This document shows, one piece after another, positions 3 to 63,031 of a stretch of 64,000 nucleotides of DNA (positions within the stretch are counted from its first letter, which is position 1; the number at the start of each line of letters is the position of its first letter). The translations under genes were made by a program, and so were the position numbers. The stretch comes from an uncultured Ramlibacter sp. (lineage in GTDB: Bacteria; Pseudomonadota; Gammaproteobacteria; Burkholderiales; Burkholderiaceae_C): contig NZ_CAKZHQ010000051.1 of assembly GCF_936925435.1 (NCBI RefSeq), positions 1 to 64,000 of the forward strand. The letters run 5' to 3'. The notes under the pieces are model-generated. The model made no database searches, had not been told where the DNA came from, and saw nothing but the letters and a program-made list of their open reading frames with translations.

Positions 3-329
3 TTTGAGGTGTCGCAATGCGTCACTTTGGACGCGCTGGAGCGCATGCTGGAGGCAGAGCGACGTCACCAGATCCAACCGATAGACACGCTGTTAACGGG
101 TCATGACACCGTCACGCTCGACAGTGAAAATGCCGGTCGTTTTCTCAGCGGACTGCGCCGTCGTGGCGCCTGGCCGGAGGGTGAGCGAATTGCCGTGTAT
201 GGCCGGTCGACCAGCGCAGTACAGGCGGCAGTCCTGCTGGGCTCAGCCCATGTCAAGGCGGGCGAACTGATCCCTGGGCGACTGTTGAGCCCCTTAGAGA
301 TACAACAGATTTTGGAGAGTGAATCATGA
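3..329 (+). CDS. truB: tRNA pseudouridine synthase B, C-terminal part (cut by window edge)
   Basis: This is the last 108 codons of a gene whose start lies left of the window. The frame is open from base 3. TruB makes pseudouridine-55 in the T-loop of tRNAs; the part seen here is the C-terminal region that follows the catalytic domain, ending in a short basic/hydrophobic tail (AGELIPGRLL). A GTG at base 9 is not a credible start because the frame is open upstream of it. The stop overlaps the typA start in an ATGA arrangement, so the two are translationally coupled. The identity rests on this tail and on the truB-typA order common in Burkholderiales. Confidence 0.8.
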   Translation, partial: FEVSQCVTLDALERMLEAERRHQIQPIDTLLTGHDTVTLDSENAGRFLSGLRRRGAWPEGERIAVYGRSTSAVQAAVLLGSAHVKAGELIPGRLLSPLEIQQILESES

Positions 330-2152
330 GTCAGAAACAGATCCGTAACATCGCCATCATTGCCCACGTGGACCATGGCAAGACCACCATGGTTGACCAA
401 CTGCTGCGGCAGTCGGGCACCTTTGCCGAGCACGAAAAAGTGGTCGATACGGTGATGGACAACAACGCCATCGAAAAGGAACGTGGCATCACGATCCTGG
501 CCAAGAACTGCGCCGTGAGCTGGGAAGGCACGCACATCAACATCGTGGACACCCCAGGCCACGCCGACTTCGGCGGAGAAGTGGAACGCGCGTTGTCCTT
601 GGTGGACGGTGTTGTGCTGTTGATCGATGCCCAGGAAGGCCCGATGCCACAGACGCGTTTTGTGACCAAAAAGGCGCTGGCTCTCGGCCTCAAGCCGATT
701 CTGGTCGTCAACAAGGTGGACAAGCCCGGTGCCAACCCCGACAAGGTGGTGAACGCCGCGTTCGATTTGTTCGACAAGCTGGGCGCCACCGACGAGCAAC
801 TGGATTTCCCCGTGGTCTACGCCTCCGGCATCAATGGCTGGTCGTCGTTGGAAGAGGGTGCACCCGGTGAGCAGTGGGGGCCTGACATGTCGGCCCTCTT
901 CAACACCATTCTGAAACACGTGCCGCCGAACTCCGGCGATCCGGCCGCACCCCTGCAGTTGCAGATTTCTGCGCTGGACTACTCCAGTTTTGTGGGCCGC
1001 ATTGGCGTGGGTCGCATCAGCCAGGGCACACTCAAACCCAGCCAGGATGTGCTGGTCATGGAAGGGCCGGACGGCAAGTCCGTCAAAGGGCGTGTGAATC
1101 AGGTGTTGACCTTCCAAGGTCTGGACCGCATGCAAACCCCCCAGGCCGGCCCGGGTGACATCGTGCTGATCAATGGCATTGAAGACATCGGTATCGGCGT
1201 GACCGTGACCGACCCGAGCAACCCGGCGCCGCTGCCCATGCTCAAAGTGGATGAGCCGACCTTGACCATGAATTTCTGCGTCAACACCAGCCCCTTGGCC
1301 GGTCGCGAAGGCAAATTCGTGACCAGCCGTCAGCTATGGGACCGCCTGCAAAAGGAACTGCAACACAACGTGGCCTTGCGCGTCAAGGAAACTGACGAGG
1401 AAGGTATCTTTGAAGTCTCGGGTCGCGGTGAACTGCATCTGACCATCCTGCTGGAGAACATGCGCCGTGAAGGCTATGAGCTGGCCGTGTCCAAGCCGCG
1501 TGTGGTGTTCCGTGAGATCAATGGTGAAAAATGCGAGCCGATCGAACTGGTGACTGCCGATATCGAAGAGCAGCATCAGGGCGGGGTGATGCAAGCCATG
1601 GGCGAACGCAAGGGTGAACTGGTGAACATGGAGCCCGATGGCCGTGGCCGCGTGCGGCTGGAATACCGCATCCCGGCGCGTGGGCTGATCGGTTTCTCCA
1701 ACGAATTCCTGAACCTGACACGTGGTTCAGGCCTGATCTCCAACATCTTTGATCGCTATGAACCGCACAAGGGTGACATCGGTGGGCGCAAGAACGGCGT
1801 GTTGATTTCCATGGATGACGGCGAAATCTTCACCTACGCCCTGGGCAAACTGGATGATCGCGGCCGTATGTTCGTCAAAGCCAACGATCCGGTGTACGAA
1901 GGCATGATCGTGGGTATCCACAGCCGCGACAACGATTTGGTGGTCAACGCCACGCGCACCAAACAACTGACCAACTTCCGCGTCAGCGGCAAGGAAGATG
2001 CCATCAAGATCACGCCGCCGATTGAACTCACGCTGGAGTACGGCGTGGAATTCATTGAAGACGATGAGTTGGTCGAAATCACGCCCAAGAGTGTGCGTCT
2101 GCGCAAGCGCTTCCTGAAAGAACACGAGCGCAAGCGCGCATCACGGGATTAA
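326..2152 (+). CDS. typA: Ribosome-associated GTPase TypA/BipA
   Basis: A 608-residue translational GTPase of the EF-G/LepA class that binds ribosomes and supports 50S assembly and stress adaptation. The G domain is complete: P-loop GHVDHGKTT near residue 15, switch I ERGITI near residue 53, [11 protein letters not shown] near residue 75, and the NKVDKPGA motif near residue 129. An EF-Tu domain 2-like barrel, EF-G domain III/V-like parts and the basic BipA C-terminal domain ([12 protein letters not shown]) follow. Length is that of the family. It starts inside the end of truB. Codon use is richer in CGT and TTG than in most later genes. Confidence 0.97.
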
Positions 2153-2180
2153 CCTCCTTGATCCAGTTAGCCCGTGAGTC

Positions 2181-2252
2181 GGCCTCAGGGCCGCTTGCCT
2201 CCAAGGGGAATGACGCCAGTGGCCCGGCAAAGCCGGTTCCACGGCGTCCCGC
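2181..2252. repeat. Dispersed intergenic repeat, family 1, copy A
   Basis: The typA-eamA spacer holds a GC-rich segment that resembles the urtA-urtB spacer at 5683-5750. Shared blocks, in order, are GGCCT, GGCCGC, CCTC, AAGGGG, CAG(T/C)GG, CCGGCAAA, CCGG and TCC(A/G)CGG. The two copies lie in the same orientation. I read this as a short dispersed genomic repeat, not a regulatory site. The relatedness is by eye. Confidence 0.55.
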
Positions 2253-2285
2253 GAAGGGGATACGGGCGTCAGGCAGCCCCTGCAC

Positions 2286-3161
2286 ATGAAACTTACGCAC
2301 CGGCGCGCGGTCTGGTTGATGGTGGCGGTGACCTTGATGTGGTCCATCGCCGGTATCGTCACGCGCCATCTGGAGTCTGCGCGCAGTTTCGAGGTGACGT
2401 TCTGGCGCAGCTTCTTCACGGCGCTGTCGCTGGTCTTCATCCTGCCGTTGTGGCGCGGCCCGGCGACGGTCTGGCAACAACTGCGCGGTGCCCCAGCGGC
2501 CTTGTGGTGGTCTGGACTGTGCTGGAGCGGCATGTTCACCTCCTTCATGCTGGCCATGACCATGACCAGTGTGGCGTGTGTGCTGGTGATCTCGGCGCTG
2601 AACCCCTTGTTCACCGCCCTGATTGCATGGCTTTTTCTGCGCCAACGGATTGCGGCACACACCTGGCTGGCCATTGTCCTGGCCGGCGCTGGCATGGGCT
2701 GGATGTTTGTCGCCCAGATGGCTGGCGACCATTGGTTGGGGTTGTTGATTGCCCTGTGTGTTCCGCTTTCTGCCGCCATCAACTGGGTGGTGGTGCAACA
2801 AGCCCACAGTCACGGCAAAGATGTCGATCTGATTCCCTCGGTCCTGGTGGGCGCAGTGATCTCCAGCTTGCTGACCCTGCCGCTGGCACTGCCTTTGCAG
2901 GCCACGGCACACGACCTCGGCCTGCTGGCCGTACTGGGGGTGGTCCAACTGGCCATTCCTTGCACCCTGCTGGTGGTGTGCGCGCGTGTACTTCAAGCGC
3001 CCGAGGTCTCTTTGCTGGCGCAGTTGGAAATCCTGTTTGGCATCCTGCTGGTCTGGCTTGGCGCCGGGGAGCGCCCTGGCCCCGCCGTGTTGCAAGGCGG
3101 GACACTGGTGTTGCTGGCTCTGCTGGCCAATGAATGGATGATTTGGAAGAACAAACCATGA
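2286..3161 (+). CDS. DMT-superfamily EamA transporter
   Basis: A 291-residue inner-membrane protein with about ten hydrophobic helices arranged as two EamA repeats, the layout of drug/metabolite exporters such as RhaT- or YdcZ-like carriers. The N-terminal repeat begins MKLTHRRAVWLMV with an early (V)TLMWSIAG helix, and the C-terminal half carries the second EamA unit (LLAQLEILFGILLVWL). The substrate cannot be told from sequence. It follows typA after a 130-bp repeat-bearing spacer and overlaps the next gene's start by 4 bases (ATGA), so it is probably co-transcribed with the crotonase-like gene. Confidence 0.85.
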   Translation: MKLTHRRAVWLMVAVTLMWSIAGIVTRHLESARSFEVTFWRSFFTALSLVFILPLWRGPATVWQQLRGAPAALWWSGLCWSGMFTSFMLAMTMTSVACVLVISALNPLFTALIAWLFLRQRIAAHTWLAIVLAGAGMGWMFVAQMAGDHWLGLLIALCVPLSAAINWVVVQQAHSHGKDVDLIPSVLVGAVISSLLTLPLALPLQATAHDLGLLAVLGVVQLAIPCTLLVVCARVLQAPEVSLLAQLEILFGILLVWLGAGERPGPAVLQGGTLVLLALLANEWMIWKNKP

Positions 3162-4177
3162 ACCACGCGCTGACTGCAACCTGTGACGACGTTTTGACCG
3201 AGGTACGAGGGCATCTGGGCTGTATCACGCTGAACCGACCGCGTGCGCTCAACGCCTTGTCCTTGCCGATGATACGGGCCTTGGCAGGGACATTGCTCGC
3301 GTGGCGCGACGACCCTCAAGTGCAGGCGGTGGCCATCCGTGGCATGGGCAAAGAAGGTCCGTTCGGCGCGTTCTGTGCGGGTGGGGATATTCGCTTTTTC
3401 CACCAAGCCATGCTGCGTGGTGATGCCGAGCTGGAGGATTTTTTCACCGAGGAATACGCACTCAACCACCTGATCCACCACTATCCCAAACCTTACATTG
3501 CCTTCATGGACGGCATTGTGATGGGGGGGGGCATGGGCATCAGCCAGGGCGCCGCATGTCGGATCGTGAGAGATCGCACAATGATGGCCATGCCCGTGAC
3601 CAACATCGGCCTGTTTCCCGTCGTCGGTGGGGGTTGGTTCCTGGCCCGCTGTCCCAGCCAGGGGGGCGTCTGGCTGGCCTTGACCAGCGAGGTCATCGGC
3701 GTCGGGGATGCACTGAGTTTGAAACTGGCCGACGTCTGTTTCGATGCCAGCCGATTGGGTCTGGCCTGGGAGGACTTGTCCACCTTGGGGCGGTATGACC
3801 CGGCCAGCCTGCAGCAGTGGCAACAAACCTACAGCGTGACACCTGCGCCAGGCACGTTGCCGCTGGCGCAGATCGCCACCGCGATGCCGCGCCAGCAGAT
3901 CGTCGACCGTCTGGTGAAGGACGCCAACGACGACGCGGCCGTGCTCGAAGCCATGATGGCCCAGTTCCGGCTCACCGCCCGCGAGGCCGAGGTGCTCTAC
4001 TGGGTCGTCAAGGGCAAGACCAACCGCGACATCGGCGACATCCTGGGCGCCAGCCCGGCCACGGTGAAGAAGCACCTGGAGCGGGTGTTTGCCAAGCTGG
4101 GGGTGGAGACGCGCACCGCTGCCGCCGCCATGGCCATCAACCGCATCCGCCAGCTGCATCCGCATTTCGAAGGCTGA
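3158..4177 (+). CDS. Hybrid protein: crotonase-like domain with catalytic acids replaced, fused to a LuxR-type HTH
   Basis: A 339-residue ORF. I start at ATG 3158, which overlaps the eamA stop. Residues 1 to about 235 are an enoyl-CoA hydratase / 3-hydroxyisobutyryl-CoA hydrolase fold: GAFCAGGDI oxyanion loop near residue 68, MGGGMGISQG near 125, NIGLFP near 149. The Glu and Asp that catalyse in this hydrolase family (MPE...FPD) are Val147 and Val155. The hydrolase family is normally about 350-370 aa; here its C-terminal third is missing and residues 270-330 are a LuxR/GerE HTH (LTAREAEVLYWV, KTNRDIGDILG, VKKHLERVFAKLG), as found in response regulators. This looks like a recombination product joined near base 3860-3890. 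It may be a pseudogene product or, less likely, a CoA-ligand-sensing regulator of urtA. Confidence 0.8.
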   Translation: MNHALTATCDDVLTEVRGHLGCITLNRPRALNALSLPMIRALAGTLLAWRDDPQVQAVAIRGMGKEGPFGAFCAGGDIRFFHQAMLRGDAELEDFFTEEYALNHLIHHYPKPYIAFMDGIVMGGGMGISQGAACRIVRDRTMMAMPVTNIGLFPVVGGGWFLARCPSQGGVWLALTSEVIGVGDALSLKLADVCFDASRLGLAWEDLSTLGRYDPASLQQWQQTYSVTPAPGTLPLAQIATAMPRQQIVDRLVKDANDDAAVLEAMMAQFRLTAREAEVLYWVVKGKTNRDIGDILGASPATVKKHLERVFAKLGVETRTAAAAMAINRIRQLHPHFEG

Positions 4178-4258
4178 TTCATCAGCAAAGCGGCCTGAAT
4201 CCCGCACGGGGACTCCATGGGCAGCTATCAAAACAAGAGTGTTGTTGAGAACCTTCGC

Positions 4259-4276
4259 ATACGCCATGCGGCGTAT
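4259..4276. promoter_or_regulatory. Small inverted repeat upstream of urtA
   Basis: In the 222-bp spacer before urtA, a 7-base perfect inverted repeat (ATACGCC / GGCGTAT) encloses the 4-base loop ATGC. It could be a regulator site or a leader hairpin of the urea-transport operon. No clear sigma-70 boxes are visible around it. The spacer also holds an AGCTATCAAAA motif at about 4222. Function is a guess. Confidence 0.25.
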
Positions 4277-4399
4277 TTGCGCCAGCCCAGCCGCTGCCCA
4301 GAATCAAACCGTCCGCATCCAGTCCCTTCAGGGGGCGCTGCGGCGAAGTTTTCAGGTGATTGATTTCGCGGTTTCCTTACCCTCTTTCAGGAGCACTCA

Positions 4400-5668
4400 A
4401 TGCAACGTCGTTTCACACTCAAGGCGCTCACGGCCGCTGTCGCGCTGGCCGGCTCCGGCATGGCCTTCGCCCAGGCCGGTGGCACCATCAAGGTCGGCAT
4501 CCTGCACAGCCTGTCGGGCACCATGGCCATCTCCGAGACGGTTCTCAAGGACACCGTCCTGATGGCCATCGACGAAATCAACGCCAAGGGCGGCGTGCTG
4601 GGCAAGAAGCTCGAGCCCGTCATCGTCGACCCGGCCTCCAACTGGCCGCTGTTCGCCGAGAAGACCAAGCAGCTGCTGGGTCAGGACAAGGTCTCGGTGA
4701 TCTTCGGCTGCTGGACCTCGGTGTCGCGCAAGTCGGTGCTGCCGGTCGTGGAAGAAATGAACGGCCTGCTGTTCTACCCCGTGCAGTACGAGGGTGAAGA
4801 GCTGTCCAAGAACGTGTTCTACACGGGTGCAGCTCCCAACCAGCAAGCCATCCCCGCGGTGGACTACCTGATGTCCAAGGACGGCGGCGGCGCCAAGCGC
4901 TGGGTCCTGCTGGGCACCGACTACGTCTATCCCCGCACCACCAACAAGATCCTGCGCGCCTACCTCAAGTCCAAGGGCGTGAAGGAAAGCGACATCGACG
5001 AGAAGTACACCCCGTTCGGCCACAGCGACTACCAGACCATCGTTGCCGACATCAAGAAGTTCTCGCAAGGCGGCAAGACCGCCGTGGTGTCGACCATCAA
5101 CGGCGACTCCAACGTGCCCTTCTACAAGGAACTGGGCAACGCTGGCCTCAAGGCCAAGGACGTGCCGGTTGTCGCCTTCTCGGTGGGTGAGGAAGAGCTG
5201 CGCGGTGTCGACACCAAGCCGCTGGTGGGCCACCTGGCCGCCTGGAACTACTTCCAGTCGATCAAGAACCCGACCAACACCGAATTCGAGAAGAAGTGGG
5301 CTGCCTATGCCAAGGCCAAGGGCATCGCCGGCCACAAGGACAAGCCGCTGACCAACGACCCGATGGAAGCCACCTACATCGGCATCAACATGTGGAAGCA
5401 GGCCGTCGAGAAGGCCAAGTCCACCGAGACCGACAAGGTGATCGCCGCCATGGCCGGTCAGACCTTCAAGGCACCGTCGGGCATCGTCTCCAAGATGGAC
5501 GAAAAGAACCACCACCTGCACAAGTCGGTGTTCATCGGCGAAATCAAGGCAGACGGCCAGTTCAACGTGGTCTGGAAGACCCCGGGTCCGGTCAAGGCCA
5601 AGCCCTGGTCGCCGTACATCGAAGGCAACGACAAGAAGAAGGACGAGCCGGACGGCAAGTCGAAATAA
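4400..5668 (+). CDS. urtA: Urea ABC transporter, substrate-binding protein UrtA
   Basis: A 422-residue periplasmic binding protein of the branched-chain amino-acid/amide (HAAT) family, specific for urea or short amides. The N-terminus is a Sec signal (RRFTLKALTAAVALAGSGMAFA, cleaved after AFA); the mature protein opens with IKVGILHSLSGTMA, and GCWTSVSRKSVLPVVEE and LFYPVQYEGEE are typical of UrtA. The tail is unusually charged (DKKKDEPDGKSK). It heads urtABCDE. The start has AGGAG about 8 bases upstream. In related species urt genes answer to nitrogen limitation; no NtrC site is evident here. Confidence 0.96.
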   Translation: MQRRFTLKALTAAVALAGSGMAFAQAGGTIKVGILHSLSGTMAISETVLKDTVLMAIDEINAKGGVLGKKLEPVIVDPASNWPLFAEKTKQLLGQDKVSVIFGCWTSVSRKSVLPVVEEMNGLLFYPVQYEGEELSKNVFYTGAAPNQQAIPAVDYLMSKDGGGAKRWVLLGTDYVYPRTTNKILRAYLKSKGVKESDIDEKYTPFGHSDYQTIVADIKKFSQGGKTAVVSTINGDSNVPFYKELGNAGLKAKDVPVVAFSVGEEELRGVDTKPLVGHLAAWNYFQSIKNPTNTEFEKKWAAYAKAKGIAGHKDKPLTNDPMEATYIGINMWKQAVEKAKSTETDKVIAAMAGQTFKAPSGIVSKMDEKNHHLHKSVFIGEIKADGQFNVVWKTPGPVKAKPWSPYIEGNDKKKDEPDGKSK

Positions 5669-25283: not shown

Positions 25284-28200
25284 TTGAGTCTGAAAATGTC
25301 CGTCACCACCGACCAACTGTTCCAGCTGTACCTTGCCTACTTCGGCCGCCCGCCTGATGCGGATGGCATGCGTTTCTACACCAGCGGCAACCATGAACTC
25401 AAGGACGTGGCCGCCGCCTTCAGCGCCTCGCCGGAGTCGGTGGCCCTGCACGGCAGCAGTTTCGGGACGGCCCAGGTCAACGCGATCTACCAGAGCCTGT
25501 TCAACCGGGATGCGGAGCCTGCAGGCCAGGCCTACTGGCAGCAGGAAGTGAACTCGGGGCGCCTGAGCCCCGCCCAGGCCGCCATGGCCATCCTGACCGG
25601 CGCGCAGAATGCGGACAAGGCCGCGGTGAGCAACAAGCTGGCGCTGGCGCACAGCTTCTACGAGCAGCTCGACACCCCGGCAGAGATCAACGGCTACGCC
25701 GGTACCGCGGCGGCCGCGCTGGCCCGCAACTTCATTCACTCTGTGGATGCGTCGGACGCCAGCCTGGCAAGCGCGCAGGCGTCGCTGCAGGCCAAGGTGC
25801 TGGCGATCACCGGCACCGGACAGGTTCCTCCGGTCGGGCCGCCGGCAGCGCCCGACCCGGTCTTCGCCGTCAGCAAGGATGGCGGCGACATCGTTTCCTT
25901 CACCACTGCCGGCGCGCAGATCAGCGTGACCGAGGCGCTTGGCGTCTTCACCTTCACCAGCAGCGGCACCACCGGCACCGCCGCCGCTCCCATCACCGGC
26001 ATCGTCGTGCCCACCGGCACCACCCTGAGCATCAGCAGCGTGCTGGCGTCGGGCAAGACCTTCAGCGGCGCCGGCACGGCCCTGGTCGTGGCGAACACCA
26101 CCGGCGAGGACCTCAGCACCTTCACCGCCACTGGCGTCACAGGCTTTCAGCTGACCAGCGGGGAGAGCTACACGCTGACCGCAGCGCAAGCCGCGATCGG
26201 CCGCATCGGTGCCGCTGGCGCCGCCGGCACGCTCACCGATGGCGGAACCATCATCGTCCGCGACAGTCTGGCAGCCCTGGGCGGCGGCGTCGCCGCCACG
26301 CTCAAGACCAAGGGCGCCGACAGCGTGATCGCCACGGCCGCCACCAGCGCCGACGTGTCGGCCATCAGCGTGGCGGGCATCGACAGCATCACCCTGGCCA
26401 CCGGCCAGAACTACACCATGACGGCCGCACAGGCCGCGCTGGTGGCCACGGCGCCGGGCGCACAGACGCTGACCTTGACCACGCCGGCCTCGGGCACGCT
26501 CAGTGCGGCAGTGGAATCCTTCGTGCTGGGCAACTTCGCCAACACCGCGACACTGGGCGCAGCGGCGCAGAACGTCAGCGGCGCCGCCGGCACGGCCAGC
26601 AGCCTGGCCATCGGTGGCCTGGCCGCCACCGGCACCTGGACCCTGGCCAACGGCGCGGACACCCTGGTTGCCACCAATGGCGCGAACATCGCCGGCGTCA
26701 ACGCCGGCGCCGCCACCACCGCCGAGAACCTGACACTCACCGGCGCCATCACCATGACGCGCGTCCAGCACGAGGCCTTCACCGGCACCGTCTTGGCGAC
26801 CGGCGGTGCCGATGCGATCACCATCAGCGGCGCCGGCGCGGTGACGGCCAAGGCCGGCATCGAGTCCTATGCGCTGTCGGGCGGCGGCGCCAACGACATC
26901 ACGGTGCTGGCGGGCACGACTGGCCTGACCGGCGCGGCCGGCAACGCCACCACGGTGACCGTGGGCGGCGGCACAGTGGCGGGCACCTGGGCCCTTGGCA
27001 ATGGTGCCGACAGCATCGTCGCCACCGATGGCGCCGACATCTCCGGCGTGAATGCGGGCAGCGCCACCAGCGCAGAAAACCTCACGCTGACAGGCGGGGT
27101 CAGCATGACGCTGGCACAGCACGATGGGCTGGCCATCACGGCGGCCGGCGGCTCGGACAAGATCAGCATCACCACCGGCGGTGCGGTGACCGCCAAGGCC
27201 GGCATCGAGTCCTATGCGGTCTCGAGCGGCGGCACCAACAGCATCATGGTGCTGGCCGGCGCGACTGGCCTGAGCGGCGCGGCTGGCAACGCCACCACGG
27301 TGACCGTGGGTGGCAACACCGTCAGTGGCACCTGGGCGCTGGCCAACGGCGCCGACTCGCTGGTGGCCACGGATGGCGCGAGCATCGCCGGGGTCAACCT
27401 CGGCGCGGCAACGACTGCGGAAAACCTCACGCTCACCGGTGGCATCGCCATGACGCTGTCGCAGCACGACGCGCTGGCCATCACGGCAGCCGGCGGTGTG
27501 GACAAGATCAGCATCACCAGCGGCGGCGCGGTGACCGCCAAGGCTGGCATCGAGTCCTATGCGGTCTCGGGTGGTGGCGCCAACAACATCACGGTGCTAG
27601 CGGGCGCGACTGGCATCAGCGGCGCGGCCGGCAATGCCACCACGGTGACCGTCGGTGGCGGTACCGTCAGTGGCACCTGGGCCCTGGCCAACGGTACCGA
27701 CAGCCTCGTTGCCACCGATGGCTCCGACATCTCGGGGGTGAATACGGGCAGCGCCATCAGCGCAGAAAACCTTACGCTGACTGGCGGGATCGCCATGACG
27801 TTGGCGCAGCACGATGGGCTGGCCATCACGGCGGCCGGTGGCGCGGACAAGATCACCATCAGTAGCGGCGGCACGGTGACGGCCAAGGCCGGCATCGAGT
27901 CCTATGTGGTCTCGGGCGGCGGCGCCAACAACATCACGGTGCTGGCGGGGGTGACCGGCCTGACCGGTGCGGTCGGCAACGCCACGACGGTGACCGTGGG
28001 TGGCAACACGGTGTCGGGCACCTGGGCGCTGGGCAACGGCGCCGACGTGCTGGTGGCCACCAGTGGTGCCAACATCGCCGGCGTCAACACAGGCGCGGCG
28101 ACCACGGCTGAGAACCTCACACTCACTGGCGCCATCACCATGACGCGCGTCCAGCACGAGGCCTTGGCTGTCGCGGCGGCCGGCGGCGCCGATGCGGTCA

Positions 28201-31200
28201 CCATCACCACCGCAGGTGCGGTGACAGCCAAGACTGGCATCGAGTCCTATGCGCTCTCGGGTGGTGGCGCCAACGCCATCACATTGCTGGCGGGCGCGAC
28301 AGACCTGAGTGGCGCGGCTGGCAATGTCACCACGGTGGCCGTGGGCAGTAGCACGGTGTCAGGCACCTGGGCCCTGGGCAATGGTGCCGACGCGATCGTC
28401 GCCACCAACGGCGCGAACATCGCCGGGGTCAACGCCGGCGCGGCAACGACCGCTGAGAGCCTGACCCTGGCCGGTGGGATCGCCATGACGCAGGCGCAGT
28501 ACCTGGGCCTGACGTCCATCACGGCCGCCGGCGGCTCGGACGCCGTGGCCATCACCAGCGGTGGCGCGGTGACAGCCAGGGCCGGCATCGAGGCCTATGC
28601 GCTGTCTGGCGGCGGCGCCAACAACATCACGGTGCTGGCGGGTGCGATCGGCCTGACCGGTGCAGCCGGCAACGCCACCACGGTGACGGTCGGCGGCAAC
28701 ACCGTCAGTGGCACCTGGGCCCTGGCCAACGCCGCTGACAGCCTCGTCGCCACCGATGGCGCCGACATCTCGGGCGTGAACACGGGCAGCGCCACCAGCG
28801 CAGAAAACCTCACGCTGAGCGGCGGCATCGCCATGACGCAGGCGCAGTACCTGGCCCTGACATCCATCACGGCCGCCGGCGGCGCCGATGCGGTCAACAT
28901 CAGCACCGCTGGCGCGGTGGCGGCCAAGGCCGGCATCGAGTCCTATGCACTCTCGAGCGGCGGCACCAACAGCATCACGGTGCTGGCCGGCGCGACTGGC
29001 CTGAGCGGCGCGGCTGGCAACGCCACCACGGTGACCGTGGGTGGCAACACCGTCAGCGGCACCTGGGCCCTGGCCAACGGCGCCGACGTGCTGGTGGCCA
29101 CCGATGGCGCGAGCATCGCCGGGGTCAACGCCGGTGCGGCCACGACTGCCGAGAGCCTGACGCTGACAGGCGGGATCAGCATGACGCTGGCGCAGCACGA
29201 CGGCCTGGCCATCACGGCCGCTGGCGGTGCTGATGCGATCACCATCAGCACTGCCGGCACGGTGACGGCCAAGGCCGGCATCGAGTCCTATGTGCTCTCT
29301 GGCGGCGGCGCCAACGACATCACGGTGCTGGCGGGCACGACCGGCATCACAGGCGCGGCCGGCAACGCCACGACGGTGACCGTGGGCGGCGGCACGGTGG
29401 CAGGCACCTGGGCCCTGGCCAACGGCGCCGACGCGCTGGTGGCCACCAGTGGTGCGAACATCACCGCCGTCAATACCGGCGCAGCAACCTCGGCCGAGAA
29501 CCTCACGCTGACCGGCGGCATCACGATGACGCGCGACCAGCACGAGGCCTTCACCGGCACCGTCTCCGCCGGCGGCGGCAGCGACTCGGTGACCATCACC
29601 ACCAGTGGCGTCGTCACGCTGAAAGCTGGCGTAGAAAGCTACATCGTGGCGCAGCAAGCCGGCACGCCCAACACCATGTCGGTGTCTGCTGCGGTTGCCG
29701 GCGTCAACATCACGGGTGGCAAAGGCGATGCCTTGGTTGTCGTCGACACCAATGTCACCGCGACCGGCAACTGGTCGCTCAACGGCACCAGCGACGGCCT
29801 CAGCGCCGCGACCGGCGCCAACATCAGCGGTGTCAACGGCGGCCTGGCCACCACAGCCAAAAGCCTGAACCTCATCGGCGCCATGACCATGACGCAGGCG
29901 CAGCACCAGGGATTCACCAGCTTCACGGCGGTGGGCGCCTCGGACTCGATCACGATCACCACCGGCGGCGCCATCACGGCCGGGGCCGGCATCAACAGCT
30001 ACGTGCTGTCGGGTGGCGGCGCCAACAACCTAGCGGTGCTCTCGGGCACGACGGGCATCACCGGTTCAATGAAAAACGCCACGACGGTGACCGTCGCGGG
30101 CCAGACCGTGGCCGGCACCTGGGCGTTGGCCCACACCACCGACGACACGATCGTCGCCACCGGCACTTCGAACATCGCCGGCGTCAATGGTGGCGCCGTG
30201 ACCTCCGCCGAGAAGCTCACGCTCACTGGCGCCATCACCATGACGCGCGACCAGCACGAGGCGCTCGCCATCACGGGCGCGGGCGGTTCGGACGCGGTGA
30301 CCATCACCACCCAGGGCATCGTCACGCTGAAGGCCGGCGTCGAGAGCTACATCGTGTCGCAACCTGGCAAGGCCAACACCGTGTCGATGACCACCGCTGA
30401 CGGCGGCGTGAACATCGCTGATGACAAAGGCACGACGACTGTGGAGATCGATGCCGGCACCGTTGTCACCGGCACCTGGTCCCTGAGCGGTAACTTCGAC
30501 GCGATCGGCGCCGCCAATGGCGTCAACCTCAGCGGCATCAATGGAGGCGCTGACACGACGGCGAGGTACCTCACCGTCAACGGCAGCACGATCTCGATGT
30601 CGCAGGCGCAGCACGAGAAATTCACCAGCATTGTGGCAAACGGCAGTTCTGATGTGCTCACGATCACCTCAGGCGGCGCGGTGAAGGCATGGACCGGCAT
30701 CGAGACCTATGCGCTGTCGGGTGGCGGCGCAAACAACATCACGGTGCTCACGGGCGCGACCGGCATTACCGGGTCAGCGAATTACGCCACGACGGTGACC
30801 GTCGGGGCAGGGCTGGCCGTGTCGGGCACCTGGACGCTGAACAACGGATTCGACGTGATCACCGCCGCCAGTGGTTCCAGCATCGCCGGTGTCAACGGGG
30901 GCGCGGGCACCACGGGGGCGGAAACCCTGAACATCACCGGCACGGTCAGCATGACGGCGGCCCAGCACGGGGCGATGGCCATCGCGGTGGGAAGCAGCAC
31001 CGACGCGGCGAAGATCACCACAGGCGGTACCGTCAACGCCAAGGCCAGCGTCGGAACCTACAGCCTGTCCTCCGTCGCGTCCAACACGCTCAACGTGAAC
31101 GGAGGCAAGCTGGATGTCGGCATCATCGGCGATGCGAGCAACGCCACGACGGTGAGCATTGGCGGCAACACCGTCACCGGCACGTACATCCTGAGCAACG

Positions 31201-32990
31201 CAGCCGATGTGCTGGACGCCACAGACGGCGCCAACATCGCAGGCGCCACGCTAACGCAGGTCGAGCGCTTGGCAATGGCCGGCGCCGTGACCATGCGGGC
31301 CAACCAGTACGGCGCGTTCAGCCAGATCACCGCGGGCGGCAGCAACGACAGGATCATCCTGACCCAGGCGCTCGGCGCAAGCTTGCTGAACGCCGCGGTG
31401 GAGCACTTCACCCTGGCCGCGGGCAACAACTCGGCCACCCTGGAAGCCGCGCAGACCGTCGACGCGACGGCGCTGACCGCGGGCCAGGCTCTGTCGCTGG
31501 CAGGCAGCTTCGCCGCGACCGTCACACTGACGGCAGGCGCGCTGTCGGCGGGCTCGGCGAGTGGCAACCTGACCGTCAACGCAGGCACGGCCGCCAACAC
31601 CATCATCGGCGGCAGCGGCAACGACACGGTCAACGCAGGCGGCGGCGACGACCTCATCACCGGCGGCAACGGAACCGACACCCTCAACGGCGACAACGGC
31701 AACGACACCTTCTTTTACGATTCGATGGCGCTGTTTCTTTCGGCGAACGCGCTGCTCGACCTGGTCAATGGCGGCAGCGACATCGACACCGCCGAGATTG
31801 AAGGCAGCATCATCCTGGCGACGGCGTCCGACCTGACGCGCATGACCAGCGTCGAGAGGATCACGGCGCGGTCCCTATCCACGGCCCTGCAGACGCACAG
31901 CGTCATTGTCAACAGCGACTTCAACCTGGGCGGCGTGACCACCATCGACCTGTCGGGCGACACCAACAGCGGATCGGCCGCGACCATCGATTTCACCGGC
32001 GTCACCACCGCCATGACGCTCAAGGGCGTGGGCGCGGGCAAGAACACCATCACCGGCGGCTCGGGCGCGGACACGCTGATCGGCAGCACGGGCGTCGGCA
32101 CCGTCAACACCATCAACGGGGGCATGGGCGCGGACACCATCGTTGGCGGCTCAGGCCACGACTTCTTCATCTACGACAGCGCGGCCGCCGCGGTCGCGGA
32201 CGACGTCACCGGTGGGGGGGGCACCGACAGCGTGCTGTTCAGGTCGACCACGGGTGAGACGCTGGTGGTGGGCAACAACTTCAAGGCGGGCCTTTCCTAC
32301 ATGGTCACCACCAACAGCACCGCAACGGCCAACGGGACGACCGCCGAAAACATCAATGCCAGCACCCATACGGGGGGCGCCGTCACGCTGACCGGGAACG
32401 CCGGCAACAACATCCTGACCGGGTCGGTGGGTGCGGACACGCTGGTCGGCGGCGGGGGCAACGACACCATGCGCGGTGGCGCCGGCGGTGACACCATCAC
32501 CAGATCTCCCACAGGCACGACAACCTATGTCTTCGAGAACACGGCCAGCAACAACGGCAACGACTCCCTGAACGGAGTGCGCGCTGACAACACCTACAAC
32601 GACGTCTTCAATTTCTCCGCGTTTCTGGGCACCAGCGTCGTCAAGCGCGCCGCGGTGGACGCGATCGAACCGCTGGTGGGGCTGGACCTGACGACCGGGC
32701 AGAACGTCGGCATCCGTTATGGGACTGGCAGCTTGGGCACTGGCAACATCCGGCTCGCGACTGACAACGCCGTGGCCGGCGAAGTGGCCATAGCCGACGA
32801 CGGCAAGGCCGTGGTGTTTTCATTCTCATCGGGCAACTCAAGTGGCTCCGCGACCGGCACGATCTACTACGTGCAAGACACCCTCATTGGGGGCGGGCAG
32901 CAATGGGAGGTGTTCGCGGTCGGTTCGATCAACAGCAACTCCGGCAGCACGAGCGTCACGAACTTCGCAATTTATAGCAACTACATCTAG
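25284..32990 (+). CDS. Giant DUF4214 / tandem-repeat / RTX surface or secreted protein
   Basis: About 2568 residues. Residues 10-175 resemble DUF4214 (LYLAYFGRPPDADGMRFY, IYQSLFNRDAEPAGQAYW). Residues about 410-2020 are about 14 tandem beta-rich units of 115 residues, each with an AENLTLTGGI-MT--QH segment, an AGIESY segment and GAAGNATTVTVGG. RTX calcium-binding nonapeptides follow near 2107-2145 (GGSGNDTVNAGGGDDLITGG), 2255-2295 and 2370-2415, then a serine/glycine-rich tail ending FAIYSNYI, as in type I secretion signals. No cysteine-rich or lipobox signal. TTG 25284 is favoured by GGAAGG 6 bases upstream; ATG 25296 is the alternative. Probable S-layer-like protein or adhesin; no secretion genes lie nearby. 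Confidence 0.85.
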   Translation: MSLKMSVTTDQLFQLYLAYFGRPPDADGMRFYTSGNHELKDVAAAFSASPESVALHGSSFGTAQVNAIYQSLFNRDAEPAGQAYWQQEVNSGRLSPAQAAMAILTGAQNADKAAVSNKLALAHSFYEQLDTPAEINGYAGTAAAALARNFIHSVDASDASLASAQASLQAKVLAITGTGQVPPVGPPAAPDPVFAVSKDGGDIVSFTTAGAQISVTEALGVFTFTSSGTTGTAAAPITGIVVPTGTTLSISSVLASGKTFSGAGTALVVANTTGEDLSTFTATGVTGFQLTSGESYTLTAAQAAIGRIGAAGAAGTLTDGGTIIVRDSLAALGGGVAATLKTKGADSVIATAATSADVSAISVAGIDSITLATGQNYTMTAAQAALVATAPGAQTLTLTTPASGTLSAAVESFVLGNFANTATLGAAAQNVSGAAGTASSLAIGGLAATGTWTLANGADTLVATNGANIAGVNAGAATTAENLTLTGAITMTRVQHEAFTGTVLATGGADAITISGAGAVTAKAGIESYALSGGGANDITVLAGTTGLTGAAGNATTVTVGGGTVAGTWALGNGADSIVATDGADISGVNAGSATSAENLTLTGGVSMTLAQHDGLAITAAGGSDKISITTGGAVTAKAGIESYAVSSGGTNSIMVLAGATGLSGAAGNATTVTVGGNTVSGTWALANGADSLVATDGASIAGVNLGAATTAENLTLTGGIAMTLSQHDALAITAAGGVDKISITSGGAVTAKAGIESYAVSGGGANNITVLAGATGISGAAGNATTVTVGGGTVSGTWALANGTDSLVATDGSDISGVNTGSAISAENLTLTGGIAMTLAQHDGLAITAAGGADKITISSGGTVTAKAGIESYVVSGGGANNITVLAGVTGLTGAVGNATTVTVGGNTVSGTWALGNGADVLVATSGANIAGVNTGAATTAENLTLTGAITMTRVQHEALAVAAAGGADAVTITTAGAVTAKTGIESYALSGGGANAITLLAGATDLSGAAGNVTTVAVGSSTVSGTWALGNGADAIVATNGANIAGVNAGAATTAESLTLAGGIAMTQAQYLGLTSITAAGGSDAVAITSGGAVTARAGIEAYALSGGGANNITVLAGAIGLTGAAGNATTVTVGGNTVSGTWALANAADSLVATDGADISGVNTGSATSAENLTLSGGIAMTQAQYLALTSITAAGGADAVNISTAGAVAAKAGIESYALSSGGTNSITVLAGATGLSGAAGNATTVTVGGNTVSGTWALANGADVLVATDGASIAGVNAGAATTAESLTLTGGISMTLAQHDGLAITAAGGADAITISTAGTVTAKAGIESYVLSGGGANDITVLAGTTGITGAAGNATTVTVGGGTVAGTWALANGADALVATSGANITAVNTGAATSAENLTLTGGITMTRDQHEAFTGTVSAGGGSDSVTITTSGVVTLKAGVESYIVAQQAGTPNTMSVSAAVAGVNITGGKGDALVVVDTNVTATGNWSLNGTSDGLSAATGANISGVNGGLATTAKSLNLIGAMTMTQAQHQGFTSFTAVGASDSITITTGGAITAGAGINSYVLSGGGANNLAVLSGTTGITGSMKNATTVTVAGQTVAGTWALAHTTDDTIVATGTSNIAGVNGGAVTSAEKLTLTGAITMTRDQHEALAITGAGGSDAVTITTQGIVTLKAGVESYIVSQPGKANTVSMTTADGGVNIADDKGTTTVEIDAGTVVTGTWSLSGNFDAIGAANGVNLSGINGGADTTARYLTVNGSTISMSQAQHEKFTSIVANGSSDVLTITSGGAVKAWTGIETYALSGGGANNITVLTGATGITGSANYATTVTVGAGLAVSGTWTLNNGFDVITAASGSSIAGVNGGAGTTGAETLNITGTVSMTAAQHGAMAIAVGSSTDAAKITTGGTVNAKASVGTYSLSSVASNTLNVNGGKLDVGIIGDASNATTVSIGGNTVTGTYILSNAADVLDATDGANIAGATLTQVERLAMAGAVTMRANQYGAFSQITAGGSNDRIILTQALGASLLNAAVEHFTLAAGNNSATLEAAQTVDATALTAGQALSLAGSFAATVTLTAGALSAGSASGNLTVNAGTAANTIIGGSGNDTVNAGGGDDLITGGNGTDTLNGDNGNDTFFYDSMALFLSANALLDLVNGGSDIDTAEIEGSIILATASDLTRMTSVERITARSLSTALQTHSVIVNSDFNLGGVTTIDLSGDTNSGSAATIDFTGVTTAMTLKGVGAGKNTITGGSGADTLIGSTGVGTVNTINGGMGADTIVGGSGHDFFIYDSAAAAVADDVTGGGGTDSVLFRSTTGETLVVGNNFKAGLSYMVTTNSTATANGTTAENINASTHTGGAVTLTGNAGNNILTGSVGADTLVGGGGNDTMRGGAGGDTITRSPTGTTTYVFENTASNNGNDSLNGVRADNTYNDVFNFSAFLGTSVVKRAAVDAIEPLVGLDLTTGQNVGIRYGTGSLGTGNIRLATDNAVAGEVAIADDGKAVVFSFSSGNSSGSATGTIYYVQDTLIGGGQQWEVFAVGSINSNSGSTSVTNFAIYSNYI
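26520..31400 (+). repeat. Tandem array of about 14 coding units of about 345 bp
   Basis: The AGIESY-type landmark recurs near 26865, 27210, 27555, 27900, 28245, 28593, 28941 and 29286: spacings of 345, 345, 345, 345, 348, 348 and 345 bases. Further, more diverged copies sit near 29635, 29995, 30345, 30700 and 31055. The reading frame is kept throughout. The first eight are close to each other in DNA as well as protein; later ones are progressively different. Confidence 0.88.
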
Positions 32991-62766: not shown

Positions 62767-62786
62767 GCCAGCCTGCAAAGGCTGGC
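62767..62786 (+). terminator. Hairpin before the FMN riboswitch
   Basis: GCCAGCCT / AGGCTGGC, 8 perfect base pairs with a GCAA loop, 57 bases after the deaminase stop. No T run. It may end the upstream transcript. A TAAAAT box just before it (62755-62760) could be the -10 of the ribH promoter, in which case the hairpin is at the start of the leader instead. Confidence 0.4.
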
Positions 62787-62789
62787 AGC

Positions 62790-62940
62790 GTTCTCAGGGC
62801 GGGGTGCAATTCCCCACCGGCGGTATCCGTGCGCAAGCGCGGGAGCCCGCGAGCGCCCGGCCTGCGCCACAGCGCGTGCCGGGGTCAGCAGACCTGGTGC
62901 GATGCCAGGGCCGACGGTCACAGTCCGGATGAAAGAGACG
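62790..62940 (+). promoter_or_regulatory. FMN riboswitch (RFN element)
   Basis: All conserved blocks are present in order: TTCTCAGGGCGGGGTGCAATT near 62791 (one run shown short here), CCCACCGGCGGTAT, GCCCGCGAGCG, GGTCAGCAGACCTGGTG, GGCCGACGGTCA, AGTCCGGATGAAAGAGA. The long variable stem lies between about 62830 and 62875. FMN binding would lower expression of the lumazine synthase gene 91 bases downstream. The expression platform is unclear; the following region has no strong T run, which favours control of translation. Confidence 0.95.
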
Positions 62941-63031
62941 CGAAGTCTGGCTGCCGCATGCGCCTCTGGTGCAGGCGGGGTCGGCCGTTCGCACGCGCCC
63001 TGATTCTGGCAACCAGCTCTTTGGCAACACC

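Follow-up and report, generated by a model that had tools for sequence, protein, structure and literature searches.

3-Hydroxyisobutyryl-CoA hydrolases (HIBCH; families NF004127 and PF16113, with solved chains 3bpt and 4hdt) have a catalytic glutamate and a catalytic aspartate. The HIBCH fold is also found in a non-metabolic setting, in the protein mS47 of the mitoribosome. The other relevant system is the LuxR/GerE-type response regulator of the urt locus. In members of the host's genus, a gene that we take from its translation to be a permease-kinase, the regulator, and urtA follow in succession, with or without intervening genes.

The window (the whole stretch of DNA that we analyzed, 64,000 nucleotides from an uncultured Ramlibacter sp.) contains a single open frame of 339 codons on the forward strand (3158-4177) that resembles both systems. 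An in-frame ATG further upstream, at 3134, would lengthen the fused protein to 347 amino acids. Residues 1 to ~236 are similar to HIBCH in sequence, in predicted fold, and in the oxyanion loops, but both catalytic acids are replaced by valine, the C-terminal third is gone, and an unrelated LuxR tail stands in its place. The last 82-83 codons and their location upstream of urtA resemble the urt-locus response regulator of the genus, but there is no receiver domain and the linker before the tail is unrecognizable. The fused protein also shares its HIBCH fold with the mitoribosomal mS47; unlike the fused protein, mS47 has the full-length fold and no DNA-binding domain. Judged from sequence, the predicted protein is not a HIBCH, on grounds of both catalysis and completeness, nor is it a response regulator, because the receiver domain is lacking.

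The initial annotation described a crotonase/3-hydroxyisobutyryl-CoA-hydrolase-like N-terminus and a LuxR helix-turn-helix (HTH) in one frame, and the family profiles bear this out. ECH_2 (PF16113) matches residues 21-268 of the fused protein (248 bits) and GerE (PF00196) matches residues 272-326 (62 bits). NF004127 matches residues 7-252 with 295.9 bits, which passes its curated cut-off of 274; the match spans positions 6-253 of the profile's 356, and the C-terminal third of the hydrolase is absent. The true homology to hydrolases is shorter than the Pfam envelope: DNA matches to homologues stop at about 3866 (codon 236), and homology to response regulators begins at about 3931. The frame can thus be divided into ~236 hydrolase-like codons (3158-3866), whose start overlaps the stop of the preceding EamA gene; ~21 unassignable codons (3867-3930), which lack secure homology in the loci compared and whose third-position GC content (GC3) is already host-like; and ~82 codons from the 3' end of a LuxR/GerE-type response regulator (3931-4177). 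We considered that the middle stretch might be a remnant of the regulator's linker, and rejected this as it has no match in the loci compared. The receiver domain, absent from the fused protein in the Pfam scan, is present in a relative on host contig C33.

We propose that two unrelated sequences meet accidentally in this frame, most likely through a chimeric assembly of the left end of its contig (C51), although we hold this with only about even confidence. The left side (1 to ~3866) would be a typA-EamA-hydrolase fragment from a different, Curvibacter-like bacterium. The right side (from ~3931) would come from the host and comprise the final 82 codons of a LuxR-type response regulator from the urea locus, with urtA behind them. 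The foreign and host halves would meet in frame by chance. If translated, the frame would yield a truncated crotonase core that lacks both the C-terminal part and the catalytic acids, then a short linker and an HTH without a receiver, and we expect this product to be non-functional.

The first base of the window is also the first base of the contig, and the first 3.87 kb hold a typA-EamA-hydrolase block that the genome also has elsewhere, in diverged form. The usual locus is on host contig C13, where the hydrolase is intact (372 amino acids, 65% identity to the window copy). Among the matches listed, only two of the 246 matching genomes (this one, G000, and G146) have two hydrolase matches at E ≤ 1e-60. 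All of the genes in the block are on the forward strand. The C-terminal piece of a gene that is cut by the contig end (9-329) is presumably truB; no family was named for this frame by Pfam (E ≤ 1e-5) or NCBIfam (E ≤ 0.01). It is followed by an intact second typA, for a translational GTPase of 608 amino acids (326-2152; TIGR01394, 912.9 bits), and by a gene for an EamA-family transporter (2286-3161; PF00892). The intergenic sequence 3' of typA (2171-2260) is a dispersed repeat with many copies in Curvibacter-like genomes, and for the equivalent part of L046 there are 16 short matches within the host genome.

From base 1 onward, the left block aligns unbroken with at least 10 genomes of one genus (g39) at 77-81% DNA identity. 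Judged by its best named relatives, this genus is Curvibacter-like; the identity to Curvibacter sp. AG1 is 81% over 99-3866. The closest match among those listed is also at ~81%, and the search did not turn up a near relative of the donor. Similarly, the EamA protein has 77-81% amino acid identity to the nine Curvibacter-like loci listed versus 58% to the host's own copy.

The composition changes at the join as well. GC3 is 0.75 in the window's typA, 0.78 in EamA, and 0.745 in the hydrolase, versus 0.93 in the LuxR tail and 0.91 in urtA, and the sliding GC3 climbs at ~3850-3880, which is the fusion point. The host's own typA on C13 has a GC3 of 0.914. In the g39 loci, GC3 of typA ranges from 0.785 to 0.904 and just two of the seven loci compared are near 0.79-0.80, so the left block is low in GC3 even for that genus. 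This untypical composition counts against the chimera.

To count changes that are private to the window's genes, we compared 20 rows for typA, 18 for EamA, and 22 for the hydrolase (identical rows were dropped). The foreign typA has 35 synonymous and 4 nonsynonymous private codons, which implies strong constraint. Such constraint fits the sole copy in another organism rather than an old redundant copy. Because of the contig end, the duplicate block, the composition break, the uniqueness of the fusion (see below), and the constrained foreign typA, we favor the chimera, and we infer that the assembler, not the cell, most likely made the join.

The junction is possibly a recent real insertion, which would still not make it an established regulator. 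Here, a foreign typA-EamA-hydrolase segment would have entered the genome upstream of urtA, a duplicate urea regulator would have lost its 5' part, and the resulting frame would be real but incidental and non-functional. We consider this possible but somewhat doubtful. A redundant foreign typA that shows no relaxation would require a very recent event, and since the block starts at the contig end, its other boundary lies outside of our view. On the other hand, the private nonsynonymous count for EamA (17) is the highest of its set (the next is 16), which fits a real insertion and counts against the chimera. Also against the chimera, no donor-like copies of the genes that flank the block were found in the bin (tested with one 10.7-kb relative), and the frame survives across the join, which by our estimate would happen by chance about one time in three.

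The right half is host-like. In DNA, the tail is 82.7% identical to the complete regulator gene of the host (contig C33), with values of 84.1-86.8% for five members of the genus and 80.5% for a sixth. At the protein level, the last 82-83 codons are 84-85% identical to the urt-locus regulator of the genus, whose host copy on C33 is a complete response regulator (366 amino acids from its first ATG). The protein identity of the tail is 77-78% in two Curvibacter genomes versus 82-85% in the loci compared from the genus. The tail is followed by a host-like urtA, for the substrate-binding protein of a urea ABC transporter (4400-5668, forward strand; TIGR03407, 598.9 bits). Among the matches listed, the host genome has no other long match to urtA, and the DNA identity of this gene to most members of the genus is 85-92%. 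That the tail precedes urtA, just as the regulator does in relatives from the genus, is consistent with a real join.

A misassembly should have left the 5' half of a second regulator somewhere. But the assembly, which is given as 100% complete, does not contain such an orphan half; apart from the C33 regulator itself, the best match to that regulator reaches 50% over the receiver domain. The tail may therefore really be truncated in the cell, which is evidence for a real insertion and against the chimera.

The regulator gene on C33 lies 640 bases from that contig's right end, and this end (C33:48094-48734 of G000; 6094-6734 of L156) also looks joined, which speaks for the chimera. It contains an AMP-nucleosidase-like start of ~36 codons that runs into an unrelated frame on the reverse strand, which we take to be a POTRA/ShlB-type start. 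An AMP-nucleosidase-like start is found 3' of the regulator in L182, L183, and L186, from Hylemonella and Curvibacter genomes (the gene in L183 belongs to PF10423). AMP nucleosidase is not found 3' of the regulator in members of the genus: the four that we searched carry the family elsewhere, and the host has it on C19. Since members of the genus carry AMP nucleosidase at other places, the C33 end resembles other genera here.

The initial annotation suggested that the frame might encode a CoA-ester-binding transcription factor with a new architecture. In a working regulator of this kind, a crotonase domain that lost its catalytic acids but still binds an acyl-CoA ester would control a LuxR-type HTH at the urtA promoter. 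Such a regulator should recur, and its domain pair should be found upstream of urtA in more than one species. Among the matches listed from 61 genomes (this one, 36 others of the same genus, and 24 of the order), the fusion was found in this genome only. The same was true among the matches listed for 399 genomes of the family and, at E ≤ 1e-92, for 399 genomes of the order. (Each set of 399 includes this genome, the three samples overlap one another, and in the two larger ones, up to the best five candidates per genome were scored.) A hydrolase match at E ≤ 1e-60 was found in 246 of the 399 family genomes, and at E ≤ 1e-92 we estimate that a fusion with about half identity would be expected to appear. 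When we searched 60 genomes of the genus with the left and the right parts separately, the two were adjacent only in this genome, among the matches listed. Furthermore, none of 125 distinct homologous hydrolase frames carries a LuxR tail, and 121 of the 125 have the canonical C-terminus. In the samples searched, relatives carry the hydrolase and the regulator as two separate genes, an outcome that the initial annotation had named as a refutation, and there is no conserved junction upstream of urtA. As judged by these sequence searches, the defining feature of a conserved crotonase-LuxR regulator, recurrence in more than one species, is absent, and the proposed architecture lacks comparative support.

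A few matches looked like fusions at first. In a GTDB scan (best 80 loci), six matches appeared to be full-length, extending to residues 331-333 (L048, L049, L053, L054, L072, and L074); their translations are intact hydrolases whose C-termini were forced into alignment with the LuxR tail, so we rejected them as conserved fusions. L030 has a similar alignment (11-333), and its frame is 364 amino acids. A match over 7-323 in G443 (L201) was also rejected, as its translation is an intact hydrolase. We considered carriage on a plasmid as well, but a search of PLSDB with 2286-4400 returned 127 records, none of which cover 80% of the query. Among the titles that we met in a literature search, none described a crotonase-LuxR fusion, which does not prove its absence.

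The loss of both catalytic acids, which the initial annotation had noticed, is real: the fused protein has V147 and V155 where 125 of 125 homologues have Glu and 125 of 125 have Asp. (The homologues are distinct frames of at least 300 amino acids whose identity is 45% or more; we dropped frames below these limits, identical ones, and the window's own loci.) The solved chains 3bpt and 4hdt also align E and D opposite V147 and V155. In agreement with the initial annotation, the putative oxyanion loops are kept: residues 74-77 and 123-125, which we take to be these loops, are invariant columns across the 125 homologues and are retained in the fused protein. Of the ~63 columns that are conserved at 97% or above, just three are broken (T138R, E147V, and D155V), and two of these are the catalytic pair. 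Under random placement, the chance of this is 0.0015. Other homologues have a median of zero broken columns, with three each in L125, L097, and L082, and 9, 13, and 14 in three distant homologues.

As an alternative to a new regulator, the initial annotation proposed that a decayed hydrolase gene had been fused by deletion to the tail of a urea-related regulator. In its components this comes close: a truncated hydrolase is joined to the tail of a urea-related response regulator, and relatives of this regulator are found upstream of urtA. But with just T138R, E147V, and D155V at the conserved columns, we rejected general pseudogene decay as a full account of the hydrolase, and the scarcity of broken columns also weighs against the real but incidental insertion. 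That proposal also lacked the foreign typA-EamA-hydrolase block at the contig end, the composition break, and the intact host copies of both genes.

The changes in the hydrolase are concentrated around the active site. There are 8 private nonsynonymous codons among the 45 codons in 131-175 (the next homologue has 4 there), 4 among the 130 codons before, and 6 among the 61 after. The excess (8/45 versus 10/191; Fisher p = 0.009, with a boundary that was picked after inspecting the data) would fit a real insertion as well. In contrast, codons 1-130 have 12 synonymous and 4 nonsynonymous private codons. Private changes also fall at weakly conserved positions (133, 134, and 139, for example), which, together with the boundary of the Fisher test, counts against targeted change. 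We also noticed that in 3542-3670 (codons 129-171), substitutions are densely clustered around the active site, several of them altering more than one base of a codon, and that across codons 61-120, the differences from Curvibacter sp. AG1 are at third positions only.

The lost catalytic acids are the sole observation that an accidental junction leaves unexplained: an ordinary donor gene should have kept them, as 125 of 125 homologues do, and this counts against a simple chimera. The acids might already have been lost in the Curvibacter-like donor, where the protein would be a non-catalytic relative of the enzyme, to which the LuxR tail is irrelevant. We view this as a reasonable possibility, short of even confidence. 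Both kinds of accidental join would allow for it, so our confidence in it is not to be added to theirs. Since the neighboring typA shows no relaxation, we infer that the hydrolase acquired its changes in the donor lineage, prior to the join. The clustering of private changes in codons 131-175, while codons 1-130 and typA evolve normally, is consistent with this, and mS47, whose chains are among the structural matches (see below), illustrates that HIBCH-like proteins with a non-metabolic role exist. However, the conservation of both acids in all of the homologues examined argues against loss in the donor, as does the failure to find any genome near it (the best DNA identity over the block is ~81%, among the matches listed).

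The pattern of loss could also be read as support for a working regulator, as the protein retains its oxyanion loops and almost every other conserved column, the frame and the HTH are intact, and the chance of hitting the catalytic pair is low. An AlphaFold2 model of the fused protein keeps a crotonase-like core and the HTH, with some order in both domains (mean pLDDT 79). However, the hydrolase lacks its C-terminal part, and pLDDT is low in the linker (~55 for residues 241-260) and at residues 148-157 (below 50). Nothing stands out in codons 1-130 or in the tail, the fusion is in a single assembly within the genomes searched, and the constraint on the foreign typA suggests that the hydrolase had changed before the join. 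We consider a working regulator to be improbable. Its fullest version, in which a crotonase domain without its catalytic acids was recruited after gene transfer, by fusion to a response regulator's tail, as an acyl-CoA-sensing transcription factor for the urea uptake operon, seems more improbable still.

The weakness of the model near the active site is only partly specific, because a full-length control (86.5 overall) also scores low there: pLDDT for residues 141-150 and 151-160 is 63 and 45 in the fused protein versus 69 and 63 in the control. The best matches of the model in Foldseek are HIBCH-type and mitoribosomal chains.

More broadly, when two genomes are joined at the end of a contig, the result can mimic a new regulator architecture, open frame included. 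Such a case can be exposed by checking for a second copy of a housekeeping block, a shift in GC3 at the join, and separate intact genes in relatives. If read mapping proved that the join is real, then the gene fusion would be very young, and it would be worth assaying because the catalytic acids are specifically gone.

Elsewhere in the window, an FMN riboswitch (62786-62943, 93 bits) is the sole Rfam match above threshold. An open frame of 2568 amino acids (25284-32990) has matches to DUF4214 and to RTX-type calcium-binding repeats; from these matches, it probably encodes a large secreted or surface protein.
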